Origin: Marmoricola sp. Leaf446
GTDB lineage: Bacteria; Actinomycetota; Actinomycetes; Propionibacteriales; Nocardioidaceae
Direction of reading: 5' to 3'
NCBI RefSeq assembly: GCF_001424755.1
Contig: NZ_LMRF01000006.1
Span: 157,606 to 221,605, forward strand
DNA: 64,000 nucleotides
How positions within the stretch are numbered: position 1 is the first letter of the stretch; the number at the start of each line of letters is the position of its first letter. The notes below the pieces were generated by a model. That model was not told the DNA's origin. It did not search any database and was given only the letters and a program-made list of their open reading frames with translations. Positions 5,838 through 8,462 of the stretch are shown piece by piece. Both the position numbers and the translations under genes were made by a program.

Positions 5838-6866
5838 ATGCGCTACCGCACCCTGGGCCACAGCGGCTGCTCGGTCTCCGAGCTCTGCCTGGGCACGATG
5901 ACCTTCGGGGCCGAGACCGACGAGGCCGGCTCCCACGCCCAGCTCGACCGCTTCGTCGAGGCGGGCGGCACCCTCGTGGACACCGCCGACGTCTACTCGG
6001 CCGGCGTCTCGGAGGAGATCATCGGCCGCTGGTGGGCCGAGCGCCCGACCGACGTCACCGACCGGGTCGTGCTGGCCACCAAGGGCCGCTTCCCCACCGG
6101 CACCGGCCCCAACGACGTCGGCACCTCGCGCCGCCACCTGACGCGGGCGCTGGACGCCTCGCTGGCGCGGCTCGGCGTCGAGCACGTCGACCTCTACCAG
6201 GCCCACGCCTGGGACCCGCACACCCCGCTGGAGGAGACGCTGCGCACGCTCGACTCCTTCGTCCGCAGCGGCAAGGTCGGCTACTACGGCTTCTCGAACT
6301 TCTCCGGCTGGCAGCTGACCAAGGCGGTGCACCTGGCCCGGGCGCTCGGCCTCGCCGCCCCCGTCACGCTGCAGCCGCAGTACAGCCTGATCGTCCGCGA
6401 GATCGAGTGGGAGATCGTCCCGGCCGCCCTGGACGCCTCGATGGGGCTGCTCCCCTGGAGCCCCCTCGGCGGGGGCTGGCTGACCGGCAAGTACGACCGC
6501 GACCAGCGCCCCACCGGCACCACCCGGCTCGGCGAGGACCCCGGGCGGGGCATGGAGGCCTGGGACCGCCGCGGCACCGACCGGACCTGGGCGATCGTCG
6601 ACGCGGTCCAGTCGGTGGCCGAGGCCCGCGGTGTCTCGATGGCCCAGGTGGCGCTGTCCTGGGTCACGGACCGACCGGCCGTCACCTCGACCATCCTCGG
6701 CGCCCGCACCCTGGAGCAGCTGGAGGACAACCTGGGTGCGGTCGACGTACGCCTGGCTCCGGAGGAGACCGCCCGCCTCGACGAGGCCAGCGACCTCCAC
6801 GCCACCGACTACCCCTACGGCTCCCTCGGCCTCGACCAGCGCTCCCGGGACCTCGCCGGCGACTGA
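5838..6866 (+). CDS. Aldo/keto reductase
   Basis: This 342-residue NADPH-dependent oxidoreductase has the (beta/alpha)8 AKR fold. The catalytic tetrad is recognisable: Asp48 and Tyr53 in VDTADVY, Lys82 in LATKG, and His123 in YQAHAWDPH. A C-terminal cofactor segment near 280-290 reads STILGARTLEQLEDN. It most resembles general-purpose actinobacterial AKRs that reduce aldehydes or ketones; the substrate is unknown. It is divergent from acnA with the palindrome at 5770-5787 between them. The ATG start is supported by a leaderless -10 box. Confidence 0.9.
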   Translation: MRYRTLGHSGCSVSELCLGTMTFGAETDEAGSHAQLDRFVEAGGTLVDTADVYSAGVSEEIIGRWWAERPTDVTDRVVLATKGRFPTGTGPNDVGTSRRHLTRALDASLARLGVEHVDLYQAHAWDPHTPLEETLRTLDSFVRSGKVGYYGFSNFSGWQLTKAVHLARALGLAAPVTLQPQYSLIVREIEWEIVPAALDASMGLLPWSPLGGGWLTGKYDRDQRPTGTTRLGEDPGRGMEAWDRRGTDRTWAIVDAVQSVAEARGVSMAQVALSWVTDRPAVTSTILGARTLEQLEDNLGAVDVRLAPEETARLDEASDLHATDYPYGSLGLDQRSRDLAGD

Positions 6867-6906
6867 CGTTCGGCGGCTGGCGGGGGCGGCTGGCGGGGCC
6901 TGCGGC

Positions 6907-6989
6907 GGTTTCACAGGGTCCCCTGTGAAACCGCGCCCGCCGAACGCCAGGGACGCGACACGCCGTACGTCGGGGTCCGGGTGTTCGGA
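6907..6989 (+). repeat. Left 83-bp inverted repeat with two hairpins
   Basis: The repeat begins with the arms GGTTTCACAGGG and CCCTGTGAAACC separated by TC (6907-6932, extended by one GC on each side). It continues with a second stem formed by CCGAAC near 6940 and GTTCGG near 6983. It pairs with 8020-8102 in opposite orientation. Mismatches are the two spacer bases plus nine others. Confidence 0.8.
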
Positions 6990-7042
6990 GTTCGCGCGCT
7001 AGTCCCTGTGGACGACCGTTCGCGCACCGGGTCGGGCCGGGG

Positions 7043-7048
7043 CAGGGT
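7043..7048 (+). promoter_or_regulatory. Leaderless -10 box (CAGGGT) for the DUF559 gene
   Basis: CAGGGT lies 6 bases before GTG 7055 and inside the inverted-repeat element, so the nuclease gene seems to carry its own promoter. Confidence 0.4.
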
Positions 7049-7054
7049 CCACCC

Positions 7055-8008
7055 GTGGACCACCGCTGGCAGCCCCGAGCGCCCTGGCCACCCGACCTCG
7101 TGCGACCCGTCCCGGTCGACCCGAGCGGGGTGGCCGGCCCCACCAAGCGCCAGGCGGCCGGGCCCTACTGGCGTCGTACGTCGAGCGGGCTGCACGTCCC
7201 CGCCGACACCCGCTCCGACCGTGTCGAACAGCGGATCCTCGAGCAGTCGGCCCGGCTCCCACCCGGCGGTGCGGTCACCGGCTGGGCCGCGTGCCGCGTC
7301 CACGGCGCAGCCTTCTTCGACGGGCTCGCGCGCGACGGCCGCACCCGTGTCCCCGTCCAGGTCGCGGTCGGACCCGCCGGCCGACTGCGCGCCGGACCCG
7401 ACGCCGTCGGCGTCCACCACGTGCTCCTCGACGAGGACCTGGTGGTCCGCCACGGGATCCCGGTCGTGGTCGGAGTGCGGGCGGCGTACGACGCGGTCCG
7501 ACTGGCTCCCGACCCGCGGGCGGCTGTCGTCAGCCTCGACATGGCCCTGGCCGGGCGCATCGCGACGGTGCAGGACCTGGTGGCGTACGCCGCCCGGCAA
7601 CCTCGCGGCCGCTGGGTCGTCCACCGAGCGATCCGTCTGGCCAGCCCGCACAGCCGCTCACCGCGGGAGACCGAGCTCCGGCTGATCTGGATCCTGGACG
7701 CCGGGCTGCCGCAGCCGCTGGTCAACTGCGAGGTCCGCGACCTCGACGGACGGTTCCTCGGCATCGCCGACCTGATCGACGTCGAGGCCGGCCTGGTGGT
7801 GGAGTACGACGGCGCCCACCACCGAACAGCGGCCCGCCAGTCGGACGACCTGCGACGTGAGGACGGCCTGCGGAGGGTCGGGCTGGAGGTGGTACGGGTC
7901 GCGGGACAGGATCGGCGCGACCGCGTCGTACGTCGCCTGCAGGAGGCCCGGTCCCGGTGCCGGTTCGAGGCCCCGGAGAAGCGTCGGTGGGTCGTCATAC
8001 CGGCCTGA
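7055..8008 (+). CDS. AbiEi-like / DUF559 endonuclease-domain protein
   Basis: This 317-residue protein has an N-terminal half (about 30-170) like the winged-helix region found in AbiEi-related and DUF559 proteins. The C-terminal half (about 200-290) is a Vsr/PD-(D/E)XK-type nuclease fold. Candidate active-site residues are Glu205/Glu207 in SPRETELR, Asp239 in FLGIADL and Glu250-Asp252 in VVEYDGAHH. Such proteins often occur as several paralogues in Nocardioides-type genomes and their biological role is not established. The GTG start follows a CAGGGT box by 6 bases. The gene lies alone inside an 83-bp inverted-repeat pair, which suggests it may be the element's own enzyme. Confidence 0.75.
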   Translation: MDHRWQPRAPWPPDLVRPVPVDPSGVAGPTKRQAAGPYWRRTSSGLHVPADTRSDRVEQRILEQSARLPPGGAVTGWAACRVHGAAFFDGLARDGRTRVPVQVAVGPAGRLRAGPDAVGVHHVLLDEDLVVRHGIPVVVGVRAAYDAVRLAPDPRAAVVSLDMALAGRIATVQDLVAYAARQPRGRWVVHRAIRLASPHSRSPRETELRLIWILDAGLPQPLVNCEVRDLDGRFLGIADLIDVEAGLVVEYDGAHHRTAARQSDDLRREDGLRRVGLEVVRVAGQDRRDRVVRRLQEARSRCRFEAPEKRRWVVIPA

Positions 8009-8019
8009 GCGGCGGTTCC

Positions 8020-8102
8020 TCCGAACATCCGGACCCTCACGGTCGGCGTGTCGCGTGCCTGGTGTTCGGACGGCGCGGTTTCACAGGGTCCCCTGTGAAA
8101 CC
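8020..8102 (-). repeat. Right 83-bp inverted repeat with two hairpins
   Basis: This is the inverted partner of 6907-6989 and begins 11 bases after the DUF559 stop. Read on the minus strand it starts with the same GGTTTCACAGGG arm and ends with ATGTTCGGA. The hairpin at 8077-8102 is identical in top-strand sequence to the one at 6907-6932. It could also end transcription of the nuclease gene and of the convergent MmcQ-like gene. Confidence 0.8.
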
Positions 8103-8114
8103 ACCAGGACCCAC

Positions 8115-8462
8115 CTACTCCGGCAACCGCTCCCCGCGGGCGAAAACGAGGTCGGGCGGGGCGGTGAGGCGCCAGGCCTCGAAGACCAGCTCCGCGAGCT
8201 CGGCGCGGTCCACGCCGTCGAGGTGCACGACGACCCAGCCGAATCCGCCGGCGGTGAACTGGACCTCGAACACCTCGGGCCGCTCCCCCACCAGCGCCGC
8301 CTGCTCGACCAGGGTCTGCTTCAGGCCGACCGTGCGGGTGGGCTCCCAGAGGTAGCCGAAGGTGCGGCCCGCCACCTGGAACGACCGGTAGCGGCTGTGC
8401 TCGTGCACCGCCACGTCGTCGAGCTGGGCGACCAGGGTGAGGGCGTCGGCGGTGGTGGGCAC
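8115..8462 (-). CDS. MmcQ/YjbR-family DNA-binding-fold protein
   Basis: This 115-residue protein belongs to the MmcQ/YjbR (DUF419-like) family, small proteins with a double-wing DNA-binding-like fold and no settled function. The family features FGYLW near 40 and a Trp/Val/His-rich segment, GWVVVHLDG, are visible. I chose the GTG at 8462, 14 bases after the stop of the upstream RNA methyltransferase gene, because the longer form (start 8504) would overlap that gene. It is probably cotranscribed with it. Its 3' end faces the inverted-repeat element. Confidence 0.75.
   Translation of the reverse strand: MPTTADALTLVAQLDDVAVHEHSRYRSFQVAGRTFGYLWEPTRTVGLKQTLVEQAALVGERPEVFEVQFTAGGFGWVVVHLDGVDRAELAELVFEAWRLTAPPDLVFARGERLPE

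Follow-up and report, generated by a model that had tools for sequence, protein, structure and literature searches.

A gene for a DUF559/AbiEi-like nuclease lies between an aldo/keto reductase (AKR) gene and a convergent YjbR/MmcQ-like gene in the 64,000-nucleotide stretch of DNA analyzed here (the window), and is enclosed by two inverted repeat arms, designated type A (Table 1). The start of the nuclease gene is uncertain, being placed at position 7055 in the list of open reading frames and at 7130 by our script. The first-pass annotation had aligned the flanks by hand, with 72 of 83 positions matching in inverted orientation, and an inverted-repeat search of the window bore this out, returning arms of 87 nt each that are 86% complementary and separated by 1028 nt. 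Both arms combine a perfect 12-bp hairpin with a longer and looser stem that comes after it. The hairpin, GGTTTCACAGGGTCCCCTGTGAAACC, is found at 6907–6932 and 8077–8102, two matches in the window versus none in 100 shuffled sequences. The CCGAAC/GTTCGG stem that had been described next to the hairpin was likewise located in both arms, with 6940–6945 pairing with 6983–6988 on the left and 8021–8026 with 8064–8069 on the right.

Arms were scored by the best local alignment of the upstream flank with the reverse complement of the downstream flank. The window locus has a score of 116, compared to a maximum of 32 among 81 control genes (57 genes of the window and 24 neighbors). A chance origin of the arm pair is excluded.

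Table 1. Features of the nuclease locus, in window coordinates
Feature	Position	Strand	Basis
Aldo/keto reductase (AKR), left neighbor, outside the element	5838..6866	+	Pfam PF00248
Left repeat arm, type A (hairpin and second stem)	6904..6990	+	Inverted match to 8019-8105; two-stem fold
Left-arm perfect hairpin	6905..6934	+	Repeat and pattern search; compensated changes across copies
Left-arm second stem, CCGAAC...GTTCGG	6940..6988	+	Sequence; fold
DUF559/AbiEi-like nuclease gene (listed with 317 aa and a GTG start)	7055..8008	+	Pfam DUF559, ORF list
Right repeat arm, type A, inverted	8019..8105	-	Inverted match to 6904-6990; fold
Right-arm perfect hairpin	8077..8102	-	Repeat and pattern search
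YjbR/MmcQ-like gene, right neighbor, outside the element, convergent	8115..8462	-	Pfam PF04237

The window protein and its relatives

The window protein matches the Pfam family DUF559 (PF04480) with an E value of 1.6e-4, above the cut-off, and a match to PF04480 at E ≤ 0.01 is displayed by just 2 of 30 members of the subfamily. An alignment of 30 homologues reveals that Glu205, Asp239, His256 and Asp265 are invariant, and Glu250 and Asp252 nearly so, a pattern that by eye recalls Vsr-like and EDxHD nucleases. The structure of the protein was predicted with a pLDDT of 93.5. When this model was searched with Foldseek, none of the solved structures reached E ≤ 0.001; chains of the Toxoplasma mitoribosome ranked first (E 0.01, low TM), and weak nuclease matches included PvuRts1I (E 0.06) and the catalytic domain of I-Bth0305I (E 1.1, target TM 0.62). 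The members of the family are probably PD-(D/E)XK (Vsr-like) nucleases of the DUF559/AbiEi-like kind, an activity predicted from the sequence. No near-identical copies occur among the aligned paralogues, whose identity to the window protein is 21–30% in one alignment and 43–49% in another.

Several paralogues contain the AbiEi-like N-terminal domain PF13338, and the AbiEi models of PADLOC match 10 of 11 paralogues and leave the window protein unmatched. These matches favor an AbiE toxin-antitoxin system, in which an AbiEi-type repressor would act on inverted repeats of its own promoter, and PMC7319586 describes AbiEi proteins that bind inverted repeats in their own promoters. However, a search for the AbiEii toxin (PF08843) had no match in the genome and was positive in 4 of 14 control genomes, which makes the label of AbiEi antitoxin doubtful. 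The repeats are also located downstream of the gene and beside unrelated genes, and the nuclease signature is conserved, so that we regard a toxin-antitoxin system as extremely improbable. The Y1_Tnp HuH transposase domain (PF01797) had no match in the genome either, with 6 of the 14 control genomes positive in the same search. An ordinary RAYT as the owner of the repeats is disfavored on this account.

Repeat arms across the gene family and beyond

The repeat is not confined to the window locus. The left window arm has at least 35 matches in the 3.81-Mb genome at E ≤ 0.001, with both strands of the palindrome counted and the best 40 of 63 candidates scored, and these correspond to about 19 places by manual count. 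The exact hairpin pattern is found at 8 places in the genome. The second stem varies among the hairpins, being of type A at some and of a different type (type B) at others. A type-B repeat encloses another AbiEi-like gene, which provided the lead to the whole family of 16 genes in this genome (profile built from 11 paralogues). The element that had been annotated as a single case is thus real and one of 16 such genes.

Inverted arms with scores of 42 to 116 are present at 13 of the 16 members. In a wider control comprising the 737 genes of an 800-kb sample, a score above 36 was reached by 4 genes in inverted and by 11 in direct orientation. With flanks of 450 bp, the control numbers are 7 inverted, 16 direct and 20 in either orientation, compared to 15 of the 16 members in either orientation, two of which score only 42–43. 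L074, which lies outside the 13, has a score of 46 when its own frame and 400-bp flanks are used. Its reading frame (L074:1848-2906, G000:C3 at about 206 kb) appears broken near the 3' end, and inverted arms still enclose the gene. A test of the catalytic link through repeat-free paralogues was dropped, because the pair is absent at L071, in which the catalytic signature with its acidic residues is lost, but also at L069, in which it is intact; L071 lacks a pair with the standard flanks and has a weak one (43) with longer flanks.

The sequences of the arms differ between most genes of the family. One hairpin is common to L064, L073 and L076, and another one to L065 and L072; the pairing of nucleases and repeats is, therefore, not strictly one-to-one.

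Solo copies were searched with the arms of 14 loci in an 800-kb sample, or 21% of the genome. Matches were obtained for 11 of the 14 arm families, at 32 distinct places, 28 of them beyond the two nuclease loci of the sample, and the reversed arms used as a control had no match in the same 800 kb. Twenty places are in convergent spaces, 9 in tandem spaces, 1 in a divergent space (the upstream arm of a nuclease gene itself) and 2 within called genes, against a background of 38 convergent spaces out of 291 longer than 60 bp. This distribution is that of extragenic palindromes. One spacer (L026, G000:C1:1297.8-1298.4 kb) contains several type-A copies clustered with related hairpins and runs of N; the cluster is missing in the relative G002, which has 3 bp in its place.

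The position of the hairpins directly after stop codons and their preference for convergent spaces would also suit ordinary transcription terminators, or structural intergenic hairpins that are functionally unconnected to the nuclease. Against plain terminators, the first-pass annotation had argued that the homology runs beyond the hairpin, and the second stem and the remainder of the arm indeed extend past it. In addition, no T-run follows the hairpins of the window as read from the sequence, and an inverted pair of this kind is found in only 4 of the 737 control genes. Terminators are a very unlikely explanation, also in view of the comparison between species described below.

The strongest inverted-pair outlier among the 737 controls is a gene for a GIY-YIG nuclease (PF01541, E 2e-14; L191:9150-9897, G000:C1:449150-449897), which lies inside inverted arms of 48 nt that are 98% complementary. 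Since this gene occurs in the same genome, the paired-repeat way of life may have been adopted by nucleases of more than one fold. Ssn, a family of GIY-YIG site-specific single-stranded nucleases, has dispersed repeats and a role in policing DNA and in the control of transformation. By analogy, the window protein might be a site-specific nuclease with dispersed targets that polices or channels incoming DNA, in self/non-self discrimination or transformation control, with the repeats marking DNA for it and their mobility being secondary. The GIY-YIG gene and the location of the repeats mainly at convergent gene ends are in line with such a role; we consider it quite unlikely.

The same layout recurs outside this genome. 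When named genomes were scanned with the window subfamily, 52 loci emerged, mainly from Nocardioides and Marmoricola. Inverted arms with a score above 36 occur at 39 of the 50 usable loci and at 42 when direct pairs are included; L150 and L157 were left out, and L107 and L158, in which the called gene ends far past the match, were counted as misses. The corresponding null of 1,500 mismatched pairs, in which some loci are wrongly oriented, has its 95th percentile at 32, its 99th at 43 and its maximum at 402, and the extreme values probably stem from overlapping or orthologous loci. In the relatives G002 and G008, 19 of 28 loci have inverted pairs and 23 have pairs in either orientation, versus 5.8% and 7.5% of mismatched pairs. 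In a sample of the phylum (28 loci from 28 genomes) the numbers are 13 inverted and 17 in either orientation, with a mismatched-pair null of 0.13%. These locus sets omit L182 and L184, which together make up a single broken gene, as well as L261, which is too close to a contig end. Neither an inverted nor a direct pair was detected at 11 of the 28 phylum loci and at 5 of the 28 loci of G002 and G008.

Flanking pairs are thus mostly inverted and sometimes direct, an orientation that fits poorly with a strict terminal-repeat transposon. The family was found in 58 of 149 genomes of the phylum (E ≤ 1e-10), with at least 14–16 copies in some; the counts across the phylum are lower bounds, as 15 candidates were scored per genome. 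Dispersed copies surround the two distant loci examined, within 200 kb in each case, at 4 places for one and 14 for the other, their own flanks counted. The denser of the two (L249, G085:C1:2095.8 kb) has the gene of a distant relative amid copies of GTGATCATGCA(A/G)TCCCGCCACC.

Turnover and concerted change of the arms

The first-pass annotation had called for a search of related genomes, and these contain the repeat in pairs around nuclease genes as well as alone, and both empty and occupied junctions between AKR and YjbR. The genome of the window (G000) clusters with G002 and G008 by the identity of AKR and YjbR; aconitase is less clear, with G008 being 93% identical to G000 and G002 and 92.6% to G013. 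The nearest relative, G002, is without the window element despite an AKR identity of 95.8%, and its AKR–YjbR spacer measures 47 bp instead of the 1242 bp of the window. The element is present in G008 (AKR 89%), with a protein that is 68% identical and flanks that correspond to the window arms and have diverged along with them, so that the same gene is not found between unrelated flanks. In G014 there is no element between AKR and YjbR, and G013 and G009 have a short-chain dehydrogenase-like gene (named by eye) in that position. A loss in G002 would explain this more simply, although a second insertion is possible.

The abundance of the repeat was compared at E ≤ 1e-8. The type-A arm has 12 matches in G000, 4 in G008, which has the orthologue, and 1 diverged match in G002, which is without it; none was found in the other 21 of the 24 genomes of the genus. 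In this one case gene and repeat occur together, and the scarcity of repeats where the gene is missing argues against terminators. G013 displays hairpin-only matches of about 30 bp, and sites in G002 keep two degraded type-A relics.

Individual sites also differ. A second element, L076, is absent at its site in G002. The G002 site of the type-B element L065 (L291, G002:C1:366665-367952) holds two small genes inside an inverted hairpin family, GGTTTCCCGAGGTCGCTCGGGAAACC; by eye, these genes are DUF4190-like and DUF2752-like. A comparison of solo sites used 21 of 24 rows, the 3 without a syntenic stretch being left out, and found 11 sites absent and 10 present in G002, two of the latter near the maximum of the null. 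Retention was 7 of 8 at sites whose nuclease has an orthologue with 88–94% identity, versus 3 of 13 at the rest (Fisher test, about 0.007 by hand). The sites were grouped after seeing the data, and a retention that follows the type of nuclease is suggestive only. Repeat counts in 800 kb per genome go in the same direction with small numbers, and the arms of the two G002 nucleases that lack an orthologue in G000 had no copies in either 800-kb sample.

The turnover of repeats and gene bears on the initial description of the locus as a single-gene mobile element, of which the coming and going of both components stands. It would be expected of a classical single-gene transposon whose transposase would be the nuclease, whose terminal inverted repeats would be the arms, and whose deletion derivatives (MITEs) would account for the solo copies. 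The empty and occupied AKR–YjbR sites, the lack of the L076 element in G002 and the existence of short full-palindrome copies (e.g., C6:261.7k) agree with it. In contrast, neither a target duplication nor a base-precise end was seen at the junctions read by eye, and the precise insertion point expected from aligning junctions did not emerge; sites scored as absent often have an altogether different spacer. Pairs in direct orientation, the lack of near-identical copies among the aligned paralogues, and one orthologue group that nine species keep at a single locus, apparently through long vertical residence, do not support mobility of the classical kind either. We therefore judge a transposon unlikely.

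This retained locus allows the two arms to be compared across species. Among the named loci, 44 of 990 pairs are alike on both sides, and the nine loci with similar sequence on both sides represent one orthologous site in nine species, with proteins that are 41–84% identical. Left and right arms match within a species with a mean score of 62.4 (lowest 36), and across species with a mean of 24.1 (highest 67). When right arms were reassigned at random to left arms 20,000 times, the observed sum was never reached. In two of the nine, L127 and L153, the direct match beats the inverted one. The stem sequence varies between species, examples being GATAGTCCCTGACG, GGTAGTTAGGGACG, GGTATCTAGGGACG and GGTAGTCCCCTGA, and both the partner strand and the opposite arm carry the corresponding changes. 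In five of the nine species (L131, L143, L144, L147 and L151) the arms start with GTAG, which resembles the tag of proteobacterial REPs but lies inside the stem and is possibly a coincidence.

An alignment of 14 type-A copies from three genomes shows the standard pairs in 87.7% of pair cells, versus 30–53% when the pairing is slid. The covariation score is 0.190, compared to 0.139 in shuffled alignments, and was reached by none of 500 shuffles in a control that keeps relatedness. Six pairs changed on both sides, a number that was equalled in 44 of 500 shuffles. The covariation of both arms at the nine-species locus constitutes the strongest evidence for the partnership, and a joint change of the arms between species is not anticipated for terminators. 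Such concerted change suggests that something recognizes the arms, and the enclosed gene is the obvious candidate. Recognition of the cognate arms by the protein is supported in this indirect manner.

A nuclease–repeat partnership and known systems

Taken together, the data point to a partnership in actinobacteria that has been overlooked, in which a nuclease is paired with DNA repeats of its own. Our main reading, to which we assign a probability of about 0.58, is that many actinobacterial DUF559/AbiEi-like nucleases have their own hairpin-repeat family, with a cognate pair at the gene and further copies alone, and work in a REPtron-like manner. It brings together the observed pairing, dispersion and largely gene-specific sequences, the arm covariation at one locus, and the turnover that both gene and repeats undergo from species to species. 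The protein would recognize its cognate hairpin, in extruded or single-stranded form, and nick or cut it; the ensuing repair or recombination may copy, delete or swap repeats, and gene and repeats would stay linked through the flanking pair. We infer the cutting of hairpins and the spreading of repeats from the type of enzyme and from the turnover. The working would be that of a REPtron, a transposase gene with dispersed palindromes, on an unrelated enzyme. It is likely that nuclease–repeat partnerships without HuH transposases occur throughout the phylum, each DUF559/AbiEi-like enzyme recognizing and propagating its own hairpin family.

The family is common in actinobacteria, and defense-system models match many of its members (10 of 11 here). 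If the proposed partnership is true, it would provide a function for many of the genes that currently carry the label DUF559 or 'AbiEi antitoxin'. Actinomycetota would have evolved their own REPtron on an unrelated enzyme, an instance of convergent evolution of repeat-spreading systems. If each gene has a cognate hairpin family, the genome sequence itself would reveal the likely substrate, and the role of the protein becomes a matter of a simple cleavage assay.

No paper that ties DUF559/AbiEi-like nucleases to dispersed repeats was found among the matches listed in a search of titles and the starts of abstracts in openly licensed PubMed Central. The N-terminal domain of several paralogues is shared with AbiEi antitoxins, which differ in having an AbiEii partner, not found here, and in lacking the nuclease-like C-terminus. 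The family resembles Ssn in combining a nuclease gene with a cognate dispersed repeat, but the folds are unrelated; a GIY-YIG gene in the same genome does have inverted arms of its own. The order of Glu205, Asp239, His256 and Asp265 is by eye reminiscent of the signature of EDxHD homing endonucleases, a family named in PMC6083498; unlike those, the genes described here are free-standing between repeats, outside introns and inteins.

Vsr-like/DUF559 nucleases such as VsrA of Caulobacter share the DUF559 domain and the PD-(D/E)XK superfamily. According to PMC12907096, VsrA is required for a DNA damage response that arises in a methyltransferase mutant, and no repeat family is reported in the excerpted text; the nucleases studied here have cognate repeats and, in several paralogues, an AbiEi-like N-terminal part.

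The closest parallel is with REPtrons, which PMC8266576 and PMC8049555 define as a TnpA-REP (RAYT) with its REP/REPIN repeats. The RAYT/REP parallel drawn at the outset holds for layout, dispersion, cognate pairing and covariation. By the definitions of REPtrons in those papers, in both systems the gene adjoins palindromic repeats and has gene-specific cognate repeats, solo copies are mostly intergenic (here 30 of 32 places lie outside called genes, in modest numbers and not hundreds), and genomes without the gene have fewer repeats. The differences are in the enzyme, which is DUF559/AbiEi-like and not HuH in a genome without Y1_Tnp, in the longer, two-stem arms, and in the up to 16 diverged genes per genome. 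There is also no general GTAG tag, which is absent from the window arms and occurs in five of the nine species of one orthologue group. The locus is thus a REPtron by layout, not by enzyme.
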